DNA of 39,236 bases from Elusimicrobiaceae bacterium (lineage in GTDB: Bacteria; Elusimicrobiota; Elusimicrobia; Elusimicrobiales; Elusimicrobiaceae). The first letter of the stretch is position 1; every line of letters begins with the position of its first letter. Position numbers and translations under genes: made by a program. The notes under the pieces are model-generated. The model searched no databases. It saw nothing but the letters and a program-made list of their open reading frames with translations, and was not told the DNA's origin. The stretch is from contig JAQVSV010000014.1 in assembly GCA_028700325.1 (NCBI GenBank), positions 1-39,236 on the forward strand, in the 5' to 3' direction. Shown here one piece after another: positions 34,229 through 38,051 of the stretch.

Positions 34229-35689
34229 TTATCCGGCAAGCCGATGGCCCAGTTCGATGCTTAACCGCGAGAAATCGCGCCAGCGCGCCAGCGCCGATTC
34301 CACTTCCTGCGGGCCCAGTTCCGGCATAAAAACCCGGTCAGTCGCAAGCCCGGCCCATCCGGCCGGCTCCAGCCCGCCGTCCCGCGCGAGCAGATATGCC
34401 GTGCCAAACGACGTTATTTCCTTAACCGCCGCGCGCTCCAGCGGGAACCCGAAGATCGCGCTTTGATAAGAAAGCAGGTAATCGCAGTCGGACAGCCCGC
34501 CCGAAGCGCGCCCGCTGTTAATAACGACTCCGCTCTTGCGCATAAGCAGCACGTTGTCGGCTATGCAGTGCGCTATTCCGTCAAGCGCGCCGCGCACTAT
34601 ATCGGCCGTCGTGGTGGTGGGCAAAATGCCGGTGATGACGGGCGAAACGTCGAAATCCCAGTACGGCGAGCCGAGCCCGCCCAGCGCGGGCAGAAACATG
34701 ACCGGATTGACAGACTGGCGGCACAATTTTTCACAATCGTCGTAATTAAACGGAACCCCGACGCTTTTAAGCCAGTCAAGCGCGGAACCGGCCGAATTTA
34801 CGCTGGCTTCCAGCAGATAGGAAATTTCATCGCCGTTCTGGCACGCGATCGAAGTAAGCAGGCCGCGCACATCCGCGGCGTCCGCGCCAGTATTAGCCAG
34901 GAAAAACGCGCCCGTGCCGTAATTAACGGCGGATTGGCCCGCGCCGACCACACCCATGCCGATCGCCGCAGACTGCTGGTCGCCGATCGAAACCCGGATC
35001 GGAATACCCGTATCGGCGCACAGTCCATAATCACCCACCGACGGGCGCACTTCCGGCAGGGCGGACGCGTATACGCCGAACTCGCTGATCAGCCTGTCAT
35101 CCCAGCGCAGGTTATGGATGTCGTATATGAGCATGCGCTGGGCGTGTGTCGGATCGCAGGCGAACACTTTTCCGCAAGTAAGCCGCCAGACGACATAGGC
35201 GTTAAGCGGCCCCGCGCACAGCCGCCCGGCGCGGGCGGCACGGCGCACTTCCAGCAGGTTTTCAATAGCCCAGGCGATTTTGGGAGCGGCGTAATACTGC
35301 GTTTTATAAAGCCCTGTAATGGCGTGCACCTCGTCCTGCGTGGCGGACACGGTGTCGAGCATCATGGAGGCGCGCCCGTCCTGCCAGCTCAAGAACGGAG
35401 CGAGGATCTCGCCGCTCGCGCGATCCCACAGCGCGACAGTGGAGCGCTGCCCGGTGACGCCAAGCGACACCGGCGACCAGCCGGCCGGCCGGATTTCGTC
35501 AAGCAGGCTGTGATAGGCGCCCAGCGCGGAGTCGCCAAAAAACGCGCCGTCATACTCCGCCAGGCCGGGCCGGGGGAATTCCGCCCGGATCGGACGCCGG
35601 ACAACGGCCACCGTCCCGCCGTCGGCTGAAAACGCCATCGCGCGCACGCTGGAACTGCCCAGATCCAGAACGATAAAACAGTCTTTCAT
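34229..35689 (-). CDS. FGGY-family carbohydrate kinase (glycerol-kinase-like)
   Basis: FGGY kinases phosphorylate glycerol or pentoses with ATP. The 486 residues show the first phosphate loop VLDLGSSSVRAMAF, GVTGQRSTVALWDRASGE, and a glycerol-kinase-like DPTHAQRMLIYDIHNLRWDD. PIRVSIGDQQSAAIGMG holds the catalytic Asp, and VNYGTGAFFLAN follows. Near the C-terminus is NSGRASGGLSDCDYLLSYQS. The mix fits glycerol kinase more than xylulokinase, but some glycerol-binding positions differ, so the substrate remains open. Its start overlaps the nuclease stop (TGATG). Confidence 0.85.
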   Translation of the reverse strand: MKDCFIVLDLGSSSVRAMAFSADGGTVAVVRRPIRAEFPRPGLAEYDGAFFGDSALGAYHSLLDEIRPAGWSPVSLGVTGQRSTVALWDRASGEILAPFLSWQDGRASMMLDTVSATQDEVHAITGLYKTQYYAAPKIAWAIENLLEVRRAARAGRLCAGPLNAYVVWRLTCGKVFACDPTHAQRMLIYDIHNLRWDDRLISEFGVYASALPEVRPSVGDYGLCADTGIPIRVSIGDQQSAAIGMGVVGAGQSAVNYGTGAFFLANTGADAADVRGLLTSIACQNGDEISYLLEASVNSAGSALDWLKSVGVPFNYDDCEKLCRQSVNPVMFLPALGGLGSPYWDFDVSPVITGILPTTTTADIVRGALDGIAHCIADNVLLMRKSGVVINSGRASGGLSDCDYLLSYQSAIFGFPLERAAVKEITSFGTAYLLARDGGLEPAGWAGLATDRVFMPELGPQEVESALARWRDFSRLSIELGHRLAG

Positions 35690-36957
35690 CAGTCGTCAAT
35701 GCCGGAGCAGTCGAGATGCGACTGCCGGTTATACCGGCCCAGTTTTTTCAGGGCGGCCCGGGCGTCCTCGTCCACGGCTTCGTCCGCCAGCAGTTTTTCC
35801 ACGGTAGTCTGGGTAGGCACGAGCACCTTTTTAAGCAGGCCGGTTTCCTTTAAAAATTCAATCACTTTCTGCCGGTCTGGAAACGACCAGTTCCCGCAGG
35901 TTTTAAGCCGCACCTTGTATTTGCGCCCGAAATGCTGGACATATTCCTTGTCGTTCATCAGCGCGATTATTTCGGTGCGCAGTGCGTCCAGATCGCGGCC
36001 CAGCTCCTCGTGGCGGGCGAAAAGTTCGCCGTAGCGGTCCACCTTGTCGGTCAGCGGATCGGATGGGAACGCCGGCTCGGCTTTCGCCGGCGCCGCTTGC
36101 GCGGGCGCGGCGGAGGGGGAAACGGCAGGCGCGGCGCAGCCGGGCCGAGCCGGGCCCGCCGGCTCGGCCAGCCGGCCGGACGCGAACACCGGGCACAGAT
36201 TTTTATAATCGCAGAACCGGCAGGCTTTTTCGCCGGGCGTCGGTTCGAATTTCTCCGCGCGGATATTGTCCGCCACGGCAAGCACTTCTTTCCAGAACGC
36301 TTCGATTTCGAAAACGGACGCCGGATCGAAAACATTTTCCTTGAGGTTTTCAAGCTGGTAAAAACTCATCCGCGCGACCTTGATCGCGCCGGAGTAGCCG
36401 GTTTTGGCGGCCACCAGATTTTTGACGTCCGGCGACGTTTCTATGACCTTCTGGTACATATTGAGCTGGGCGGGCTCTTTCACGACCGTCTTGCCGGTTT
36501 TATAATCAACTACGGACAGCTGCCCGTCACCCAGATAATCAATGCGGTCCACCACGGAAATCACGTTAAGCCCGTCAATCGGGAGCTTGACGAACATTTC
36601 CACCGAAACCGGCACCGCAAGCGTGGCCTTGTGTTTTTCGTAATAGCCGGTGAGGAGTTTTATGCCGTGCAGGAAATCGTCATGCTCCCTGGAAATGTCG
36701 GAATAGCCTTTTTCCTCAGGAGTTTTGGTGTGCCAGTCGCGCTCGAAGACGCGCAGCACCTCGTCGAGCGACGGGAAAGGCGGCGCATCCACCCGGTACA
36801 GAAATTCCAGCGAGGCGTGTATGCTGTGCCCGAATGAAAAATAGGTTTTGGGTTTTTCCGGTATTTTGTGAATATAGCGGAATTTATATTTCTGCGGACA
36901 TTCCTTATAGAGATTCATCCGCGAATACGAGAAATCGAGCAGTTTTGTTCGTGCCAT
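35689..36957 (-). CDS. PD-(D/E)XK nuclease, RecB/AddB C-terminal-like, Fe-S
   Basis: A 422-residue RecB-family nuclease. FSYSRMNLYKECPQKYKFRY at the start gives the first Cys of an AddB/Cas4-type iron-sulfur site; the other three are in ACRFCDYKNLCPVF near residues 240-255. The nuclease core has VISVVDRIDYLG and LSVVDYKTGK (Asp then D-x-K). After residue 255 an Ala/Pro linker and a separate helical C-terminal domain follow (KVDRYGELFARHEELGRDLD). It is not next to a helicase subunit or cas genes. A role in recombination repair is likely but inferred. GAGGT precedes the ATG. Confidence 0.88.
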   Translation of the reverse strand: MARTKLLDFSYSRMNLYKECPQKYKFRYIHKIPEKPKTYFSFGHSIHASLEFLYRVDAPPFPSLDEVLRVFERDWHTKTPEEKGYSDISREHDDFLHGIKLLTGYYEKHKATLAVPVSVEMFVKLPIDGLNVISVVDRIDYLGDGQLSVVDYKTGKTVVKEPAQLNMYQKVIETSPDVKNLVAAKTGYSGAIKVARMSFYQLENLKENVFDPASVFEIEAFWKEVLAVADNIRAEKFEPTPGEKACRFCDYKNLCPVFASGRLAEPAGPARPGCAAPAVSPSAAPAQAAPAKAEPAFPSDPLTDKVDRYGELFARHEELGRDLDALRTEIIALMNDKEYVQHFGRKYKVRLKTCGNWSFPDRQKVIEFLKETGLLKKVLVPTQTTVEKLLADEAVDEDARAALKKLGRYNRQSHLDCSGIDD

Positions 36958-37018: not shown

Positions 37019-37048
37019 TTGACAATACACCCCGCGCGACGGTATAAT
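37019..37048 (+). promoter_or_regulatory. Consensus promoter of tRNA-Arg
   Basis: TTGACA (37019-37024) and TATAAT (37043-37048) are both perfect, 18 bp apart, ending 33 bp before the tRNA. Confidence 0.88.
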
Positions 37049-37081
37049 ATAGGTACGGTTTGCGTTTTTTCAAGCCGCAAT

Positions 37082-37153
37082 GCCCCCATAGCTCAATGGA
37101 TAGAGCACCTGCCTTCTAAGCAGGGGATAGAAGTTCGATCCTTCTTGGGGGTA
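37082..37153 (+). tRNA. tRNA-Arg (anticodon TCT)
   Basis: A cloverleaf fits over 72 bases. The acceptor is GCCCCCA with TGGGGGT, with a G-U at the first pair. The D arm is GCTC/GAGC and the anticodon arm CCTGC/GCAGG around CTTCTAA, so anticodon TCT (37115-37117) reads AGA/AGG. The T arm is AGAAG/CTTCT with loop TTCGATC. The discriminator is A and CCA is not encoded. Its last eight bases (TGGGGGTA) are also the first eight of the 156-bp repeat downstream. Confidence 0.93.
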
Positions 37154-37301
37154 TTTTCATACCCCCGAAAAAGCAGACCAACTGCTTGGTCTGCGTGAAG
37201 GATCGAAAGGCGGAGCGATGTCGCGCCATGCGCGACCGCGAGCCGGGGGCGCGGCCGGGGCCGAGTGCATATGAGGCCGGGAGCCGTGCCCGATCCGACT
37301 T
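37146..37301. repeat. 156-bp direct repeat, copy 1, overlapping the tRNA-Arg 3' end
   Basis: Identical over all 156 bases to 37306-37461, with the 4-base spacer GGCC between copies (period 160). It contains three separate stems: GGGGGTA/TACCCCC (37147-37166), GCAGACCAA/TTGGTCTGC (37173-37194), and GTCGCGC/GCGCGAC around CAT (37220-37236). GGATCG (37200-37205) can close a larger domain with CGATCC (37291-37296). No coding frame persists across the period because 160 is not a multiple of three. The 5' arm of the first stem is the 3' acceptor strand of the tRNA. Confidence 0.97.
37168..37194 (-). terminator. Minus-strand intrinsic terminator within repeat copy 1
   Basis: On the minus strand the 9-bp stem GCAGACCAA/TTGGTCTGC with loop GCAG is followed by TTTTT (37168-37172). 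It would end any antisense transcript before it enters the tRNA. Confidence 0.65.
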
Positions 37302-37305
37302 GGCC

Positions 37306-37461
37306 TGGGGGTATTTTCATACCCCCGAAAAAGCAGACCAACTGCTTGGTCTGCGTGAAGGATCGAAAGGCGGAGCGATGTCGCGCCATGCGCGACCGCG
37401 AGCCGGGGGCGCGGCCGGGGCCGAGTGCATATGAGGCCGGGAGCCGTGCCCGATCCGACTT
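37306..37461. repeat. 156-bp direct repeat, copy 2
   Basis: Second, identical copy. It begins with the tRNA-like TGGGGGTA and ends four bases before the -35 box of the sigma-factor promoter. Identity of the copies implies recent duplication or active correction. Confidence 0.97.
37328..37354 (-). terminator. Minus-strand intrinsic terminator within repeat copy 2
   Basis: Same 9-bp stem and TTTTT run as in copy 1, shifted by 160 bp. Confidence 0.65.
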
Positions 37462-37465
37462 TCCA

Positions 37466-37494
37466 TTGACCCGCCCCGTCCAATAACCTAATAT
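37466..37494 (+). promoter_or_regulatory. Predicted promoter of the ECF sigma gene (near-leaderless)
   Basis: TTGACC (37466-37471) and TAATAT (37489-37494) are 17 bp apart. The -10 ends eight bases before the ATG at 37503, so the leader would be about two bases. No Shine-Dalgarno is present. Confidence 0.6.
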
Positions 37495-37502
37495 TATGCG
37501 GT

Positions 37503-38051
37503 ATGCCGGATAACGAAACCGACCTGATAGCCCGCGCCCGGCTGGGCGACAATGCCGCGTTTGAAACCCTCGCCCTGCAATACCGGGACAGGCTTTTCGG
37601 CATCGCGGCAAACGTGTGCGCGGCAATGCCGTCCGAAACCGAGGATGTGGCGCAGGAAGCCATGCTCTCGGCGTTTACGCATATAAAGACATTCAAGGCC
37701 AACTCGGCGTTCAGCACCTGGCTGTACCGGATCGCCGCGAACAAATGTTTCGACCGGATACGCCGCGCGAAAATCCGCGGCTGGACGGAACTGCCGGAAG
37801 ATAACCAGAAAGGCCATCCGGCCGGTGCGTCGGCAAACGAGGACGCGATTAAAAACGAGCTGTCCCGCGCGGTCAACGCCGCGTTATCGGCCTTGCCGCT
37901 GGACTACCGGCTCGCCGTAACGTTATGCGATATTGAGGGTCTGCCCAACGCGGAAGCGGCCGCGCGCCTTAACATTACGCTCGCCGCGCTTAAAGCGCGC
38001 CTGCACCGGGGCCGAGCACTGTTGAAAGAACAGCTCAGGAACTCCGCGTAA
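37503..38051 (+). CDS. ECF-type RNA polymerase sigma factor
   Basis: The 182 residues contain only regions 2 and 4, as in extracytoplasmic-function sigma factors. Region 2 shows TEDVAQEAMLSAFTHIKTFK and AFSTWLYRIAANKCFDRIRR. Region 4 shows ALSALPLDYRLAVTLCDIEG and AARLNITLAALKARLHRGRA. No anti-sigma gene follows; the next genes are trxA and a ferredoxin. What it senses and controls is unknown. The nearby TTGACC/TAATAT promoter is of housekeeping type, not an obvious self-regulated ECF promoter. Confidence 0.92.
   Translation: MPDNETDLIARARLGDNAAFETLALQYRDRLFGIAANVCAAMPSETEDVAQEAMLSAFTHIKTFKANSAFSTWLYRIAANKCFDRIRRAKIRGWTELPEDNQKGHPAGASANEDAIKNELSRAVNAALSALPLDYRLAVTLCDIEGLPNAEAAARLNITLAALKARLHRGRALLKEQLRNSA

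Follow-up and report, generated by a model that had tools for sequence, protein, structure and literature searches.

Why should a tRNA gene be followed by two identical copies of a structured sequence that takes up the last bases of the tRNA itself? The question is raised by the tRNA-Arg(TCT) gene of an Elusimicrobiaceae bacterium (assembly GCA_028700325.1), located on contig JAQVSV010000014.1, of which positions 1 to 39,236 were analyzed as a single stretch of 39,236 nucleotides, referred to here as the window. In our best reading, the pair is a tandem tRNA-linked repeat, TLR-type and of unexplained kind, and belongs to a non-coding family anchored behind tRNA genes. In what follows, the locus is described first, then the family, the relationship of its members to their tRNAs and their behavior between loci and species; the explanations that can be offered are weighed along the way and the family is finally compared with known systems.

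A tandem repeat behind tRNA-Arg(TCT)

The features of the locus are the following, in window coordinates.

37019-37048, + strand: sigma-70-type consensus promoter TTGACA-18-TATAAT upstream of tRNA-Arg, 12/12 consensus bases
37081-37154, + strand: tRNA-Arg(TCT) (ARAGORN 37081-37154; Rfam tRNA 37082-37153)
37134-37144, + strand: T1, the tRNA T-loop and 3' strand of the T-stem, TTCGATCCTTC, template of the mirror
37146-37301, + strand: repeat unit 1
37302-37305, + strand: inter-unit GGCC
37306-37461, + strand: repeat unit 2, identical to unit 1
37160-37166 (unit 1) and 37320-37326 (unit 2), + strand: acc', TACCCCC, antisense of the acceptor 3' strand
37173-37194 (unit 1) and 37333-37354 (unit 2), + strand: perfect hairpin HP, GCAGACCAA-CTGC-TTGGTCTGC
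37197-37207 (unit 1) and 37357-37367 (unit 2), + strand: T', GAAGGATCGAA, exact antisense of 37134-37144
37209-37244 (unit 1) and 37369-37404 (unit 2), + strand: helix P3 with the conserved internal loop CGGAGCGATG / CCGCGAG
37247-37291 (unit 1) and 37407-37451 (unit 2), + strand: helix P4
37292-37313, + strand: T2, the repeated tRNA 3' end, made of a degenerate GATCC and an exact TGGGGGTA at 37306-37313
37466-37494, + strand: promoter-like site TTGACC-17-TAATAT of the ECF sigma gene, 4 nt past unit 2
37503-38051, + strand: ECF sigma factor gene, a neighbor outside the element (Pfam Sigma70_r2, Sigma70_r4_2, Sigma70_ECF)

An earlier note on this DNA, made from its letters, had described two identical 156-bp units starting inside tRNA-Arg and separated by GGCC, and both the coordinates and the identity (100%) proved exact. 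Each unit opens with TGGGGGTA; in unit 1 (37146-37153) these eight bases belong to tRNA-Arg(TCT) itself, whose acceptor stem contributes its 3' strand together with the discriminator. The 3' half of the tRNA is then mirrored by TACCCCC and, beyond the hairpin, by GAAGGATCGAA. The GATCC of T2 pairs with T', and after unit 2 nothing of T2 is present but GATCC. The units had also been called structured and devoid of a conserved reading frame. The fold of the unit reaches z = -5.0 relative to shuffled sequences, and the frame is not kept between the copies because the repeat period of 160 leaves a remainder of 1 when divided by 3. The stated distance of four bases between the end of the duplication and the ECF sigma promoter is also correct, unit 2 closing at 37461 and the gene's own promoter-like site beginning at 37466.

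Between tRNA-Arg and the repeats, the + strand showed no terminator-like site, and in an Rfam search of the window (E <= 5) the gathering score was reached by the tRNA alone. On the minus strand, the hairpin of each copy (37173-37194, 37333-37354) is followed by TTTTTC and has the look of an intrinsic terminator. A gene of the PD-(D/E)XK nuclease superfamily (Pfam PDDEXK_1; 35689-36957, - strand) is divergent from tRNA-Arg.

A family anchored behind tRNA genes

Related copies at other tRNA 3' ends, which the earlier note had suggested looking for, were clearly found in the same genome, in relatives and in a GTDB scan, and the unit is not confined to the window. A DNA search of the genome itself and of those of 60 relatives returned matches in 51 of the 60, with E-values from ~1e-24 down to marginal, at loci directly downstream of tRNA genes of many isotypes. 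GTDB contigs were scanned with a pattern made of the hairpin loop and the core (CCAACTGCTTGG...GAARNNCGNAGCG), which is present in at least 119 stretches. The matches listed come from Elusimicrobiota and from Patescibacteria/CPR, the latter including Parcubacteria, Moranbacteria, Falkowbacteria, Yanofskybacteria, Harrisonbacteria, Giovannonibacteria and Kuenenbacteria. Among the 131 matches listed, window included, 118 lie just 3' of a tRNA gene of the same strand and of almost any isotype, and part of the others are cut off by contig ends. The same pattern gave 0 hits in the viral contigs scanned. A match labeled 'Proteobacteria' (L089), considered as a sign of wider reach, was not hit by the covariance model and was taken as chance; a typical element is present in L123, whose record is labeled 'Hydrogenedentota'.

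The covariance model of the family, R1, recovers 7 copies at 5 loci in the genome of origin, all with E <= 1e-24. Four of these loci are behind tRNA genes: two copies follow Arg-TCT (the window), two Arg-GCG, one Glu-TTC and one Ser-CGA. The last copy is an orphan (L296, contig C75) devoid of an intact upstream tRNA, with a CCCGCCA-like remnant before the terminator. Genomes of the same family contain from 0 to 31 R1 copies each (29/35 positive), and 58 of 150 genomes in a sample of the phylum are positive, as are 16 of the 17 genomes reached via CPR-type or taxon-unlabeled loci, with up to 12 copies. Four near-complete genomes of the same family (G001, G002, G007 and G010) have zero copies.

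A locus carries one or two copies, occasionally more, and the window pair could in principle be a single copy doubled during assembly, the genome being a draft of 128 contigs and the two copies indistinguishable. Such an artefact is very improbable: similarly spaced tandem copies arise independently in many relatives, some of them with divergence between the copies (L169, L090, L078), the tyrT locus of E. coli displays the same layout in a finished genome, and the existence of the family is independent of the window duplication.

Anatomy and covariation

Read in the sense of the tRNA, whose 3' half constitutes T1, the element presents in order acc', the hairpin, T', P3, P4 and T2. The mirror is formed by acc', antisense of tRNA positions ~65-72, and by T', antisense of positions ~54-64, and it is split by the perfect hairpin, of consensus GCnnnCCAA-CTGC-TTGGnnnGC. 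The two helices P3 and P4 form the core, and P3 carries across the family the conserved internal loop CGNAGCGATG / CCGCGAG. Elusimicrobiota and Patescibacteria have both this loop and that of the hairpin in conserved form. The tRNA and the element are usually separated, in Elusimicrobiaceae, by a hairpin resembling an intrinsic terminator. T2 often runs on into a second copy of the terminator, even into acc' and part of the hairpin. The 3' end of T' occurs in two states, either the perfect complement (TCGAA/TTGAA) or a fixed variant GAGAA (L041, L049, L051, L059 and others); the latter recurs in E. coli RtT, and the alternative may be structural.

The structure perceived in the window is borne out by covariation across the family. 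RNAalifold applied to 38 MAFFT-aligned elements yielded 33 pairs, 24 of which show compensatory change. In 118 model-aligned elements, 96.2% of the cells are paired and covariation amounts to 0.603, compared with 0.178 +/- 0.006 for shuffled and at most 0.081 for slid alignments; this alignment is fitted to the model, and the independent MAFFT alignment agrees with it. G-U pairs make up 0.19% of the hairpin, 1.3% of the core helices (3-7) and 9.3% of the T'/T2 helix, compared with 5.45% in the tRNAs of the same loci (acceptor and T stems), a depletion partly favored by the structure-fitted alignment and measured on related sequences. A low G-U content where pairing varies suggests that one arm is copied from the other at the DNA level. 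Template switching has been proposed as a source or maintainer of perfect RNA hairpin stems (PMC8794818).

The mirror follows the tRNA

The mirror is matched to its own tRNA, and where this differs from the downstream copy it is the tRNA that the mirror follows. T' is complementary to its own tRNA at 10.9 of 14 positions, compared with 8.68 +/- 0.10 when the tRNAs are permuted and a maximum of 9.09 over 2000 permutations; for acc', the figures are 6.12 and 4.34 +/- 0.08. T2, for its part, is a direct copy. At least 10 nt of the last 22 nt of the own tRNA are exactly repeated in 84 of 110 full-length elements (in 3/110 for another tRNA), with a median exact length of 13 nt, the window having 8 exact nt and the degenerate GATCC. 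The boundary of the T1/T2 repeat is sharp at tRNA position ~56, identity being 0.03, 0.08 and 0.71 at positions 54, 55 and 56.

T1 and T2 have diverged in some elements, which allows the two possible partners of T' to be distinguished. In the cells where they differ (positions 57-64), T' complements T1 in 130, T2 in 3 and neither in 14, a count in which diverged T2 sequences are registered ungapped and the invariant GAA favors T1. The T'-T1 duplex is stronger than T'-T2 in 91/91 cases, partly because T2 is devoid of TTC. The proposal that T' is maintained as the RNA helix closing on T2 is contradicted by this 130 to 3 preference.

A mirror tuned to the tRNA itself counts in favor of a structured RNA useful to the host, which would switch or sense the transcription, read-through or processing of the tRNA, or be set free as an sRNA of ~150 nt. 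In transcripts continuing beyond the tRNA, T' and acc' would peel off the 3' half of the tRNA and T2 would take its place on the acceptor stem. The strong covariation with conserved internal loops argues for such a role, and expression as RNA is documented for the relatives in E. coli and Pasteurellaceae (PMC8144298, PMC4986893). Structure prediction points in the same direction. When minimum-energy folds are computed for the tRNA together with its element, the tRNA 3' half is captured by T' in 89/106, T2 is the partner of the 5' acceptor strand in 78/106, and the tRNA's own acceptor stem survives in 5/106, compared with 117/119 for the tRNA alone. According to these models, a read-through transcript could not easily hold the normal tRNA fold at equilibrium. 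The alternative fold is, however, not independent evidence because it follows directly from the mirror. Against a host function also stand the intrinsic-terminator-like hairpin that usually separates tRNA and element in Elusimicrobiaceae, the patchy presence from genome to genome, the stems, the hairpin above all, with fewer G-U pairs than those of tRNAs, and the retraction of the sole E. coli TLR phenotype reported (PMC8144298). We consider a host RNA a serious rival to our reading, but an unlikely one.

A still more doubtful proposal is an RNA device swapping tRNA tails, in which the mirror would strip the original 3' half, T2 would become the acceptor strand and the element would be a large intron-like T-loop insertion. 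If true, this device, distributed over almost all isotypes of two phyla, could gate tRNA production or represent the remnant of a mobile RNA homing to tRNA T-loops.

Behavior between loci and species

Orthologous tRNA loci carry orthologous copies, and these change by tandem number, loss and inter-locus recombination. At tRNA-Val(CAC), G017 has two units (L169), whereas a single unit is present in G143 (L197), a sister species of ~93% identity. At the tRNA-Gln/tRNA-Met locus, elements are found behind both tRNAs, one or the other according to the species, and tRNA-Met of L034 is followed by the remnant of a partial deletion, consisting of the terminator, acc' and a worn hairpin. Some Elusimicrobiaceae have this divergent tRNA-Gln/tRNA-Met pair in the opposite orientation with respect to the neighboring tRNA-Pro (L034, L043, L061, L076, L086, L095, L152); elements at both outer ends of the pair could be inversion substrates. 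Half of the hairpin, T' and the core are partly duplicated inside the element at the tRNA-Arg(TCT) locus L251 of G011, which was apparently caught in mid-rearrangement.

Near-identical cores are encountered behind different tRNAs of one genome, with T' and T2 differing to fit each tRNA, as in the pairs L152 Met / L090 Tyr and L247 Asp / L252 Ser. In G013, the Ser(CGA) element continues, from a join within the core, with the 3' part of the Leu(GAG) element, the copied terminator hairpin of the latter and over 70 nt of its flank (L258/L260). This is an ectopic recombination between elements that left the tRNA-specific mirror in place. Pure vertical descent, with one lineage per tRNA, is contradicted by the shared cores and by this recombinant. 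Downstream of both elements of G013 lies a second dispersed repeat, AGGGATGTTCCCAAATGAAAATAAAATCGGGAGATGCC, which at L258 precedes an ORF starting like a type IV pilin gene.

Clustering of cores by genome within one genus is modest (0.431 versus 0.401 shuffled, sd 0.016). Within genomes, core similarity and T-arm similarity are uncorrelated (rho -0.03), so that T' shows no sign of acting as a guide that directs elements from one tRNA to another, a role for which it had been considered.

These observations bear on whether the element is, or was, mobile. The earlier note had likened the duplication to the footprint of an element targeting tRNA ends. This description stands insofar as a tRNA 3' piece is duplicated as if by insertion and the family recurs at other tRNA 3' ends; an integrase-type element is unsupported, none of the copies read containing a gene, no viral contig matching and orthologous copies being mostly kept at the same tRNA. 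A broader version would be a non-autonomous mobile element inserting into the tRNA T-loop (boundary near 55/56) with the help of a recombinase, transposase or reverse transcriptase provided in trans. T1 and T2 would then be a long target duplication, and the mirror would be made at insertion or corrected afterwards. The T1/T2 repeat that begins so sharply and runs through the terminator is consistent with this scenario, as are the occurrence of one element type in two distant phyla behind almost all isotypes and the near-identical cores within a genome. The conservation of orthologous copies, the lack of genes and of viral matches and the behavior of T' tell against it, and the documented event between loci is a recombination, not an insertion. 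We regard such an element as another serious rival, though a rather unlikely one.

A proposed recombination-driven repeat

The explanation that we favor, with a probability of about 0.5, is a dispensable repeat driven by recombination, whose mirror is kept matched by hairpin-templated correction. The direct repeats of the tRNA 3' end flanking each unit would let units amplify or be deleted by recombination or slippage, and ectopic recombination or gene conversion would carry cores from one tRNA locus to another. The tRNA tail, the mirror and the hairpin between its halves would constitute a DNA quasipalindrome whose perfection is preserved by template-switch correction, the tRNA, whose sequence selection fixes, serving as the master copy. 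The tRNA promoter would drive transcription into the element, and the resulting RNA would be trimmed at its tRNA-like end, as reported for E. coli rtT. Dispensability is argued for by the four near-complete genomes of the same family that have no copies. Several points weigh against this reading. The clustering of cores by genome is modest, and the G-U depletion is subject to the alignment bias mentioned above. Homologous recombination cannot seed an element-free tRNA, and the conservation of the hairpin and P3 loops across two phyla, for which pure copying offers no explanation, calls for a recognizer.

Comparison with known systems

The closest parallel is offered by the TLRs of E. coli, described by Egan and Landy (1978) and Rudd (1999) as summarized in PMC8144298, which counts 22 of them at ten loci, the terminal 18-19 bp on the 3' side being those of the preceding tRNA or 5S RNA, and gives them no known function. 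They likewise lie directly 3' of tRNA or 5S rRNA genes, from one to several (up to five) per locus, in units of roughly 80-180 bp whose 3' end repeats that of the tRNA. Among the eleven E. coli regions that we checked, the tyr, lys, arg and rrfB elements show T2, starting near tRNA position 58-59. At lysQ (L234) and lysV (L236), T2 is followed by a duplicated terminator and a 13-nt T-arm antisense, GATTCGAACCTGC, is present; the passages of PMC8144298 available to us make no mention of either. No core homology to the E. coli TLRs was detected by sequence or covariance model, and the elements are for this reason named TLR-type and not assigned to the E. coli sequence family. Their mirror differs as well: it has a greater length, a conserved hairpin divides it, and its sequence is adjusted to the tRNA and not to T2. 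In the arg and lys TLRs of E. coli, by contrast, it is T2 that gives the slightly better pairing with T'. Further differences are their association with almost all isotypes, their number of up to 31 copies per genome and their presence in other phyla.

RtT RNA (Rfam RF00391), the tyrT TLR, shares with the new family a T' antisense, GGGGAAGGAT, closed by a second tRNA 3' end, and its T'-GAGAA junction is also found in part of the family. Homology to RtT was rejected for the window element by covariance models in both directions: the RtT model (gathering threshold 45 bits) gave no hit in the window at E <= 5 and 133-138 bits at the E. coli control locus, and R1 scored at most 4 bits on the E. 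coli RtT locus. The rrA/rrB/rrF sRNAs of E. coli rRNA operons are, according to PMC8144298, short structured RNAs between two terminators, reached by read-through and ending in a copy of the 3' end of the upstream RNA. They differ in being located behind 5S rRNA, and no antisense of at least 8 nt was found in them.

Integrative elements using tyrosine-recombinase att sites also have a tRNA 3' end repeated on both sides. Here, in contrast, the element is of ~100 bp and lacks an integrase, no such gene being found in the ~150-nt copies or among the window neighbors checked, and the mirror has no counterpart in those systems. REP/BIME and MITE-type intergenic repeats are similarly short, dispersed, palindromic and non-coding; the present elements differ from them by being tied to tRNA genes and by carrying locus-specific tRNA copies.

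In the part of the open-access literature covered and in Rfam 15, no TLRs were found outside Gammaproteobacteria. The TLR architecture, known from E. coli since 1978 and still without function, is extended here to Elusimicrobiota and Patescibacteria, with hundreds of copies behind nearly all isotypes and a mirror tracking each tRNA. This constitutes the first large data set with which selfish repeats, substrates of template switching and an RNA switch on tRNA production can be weighed against one another as accounts of TLRs, and the question becomes testable because relatives with 0 and with 31 copies exist.
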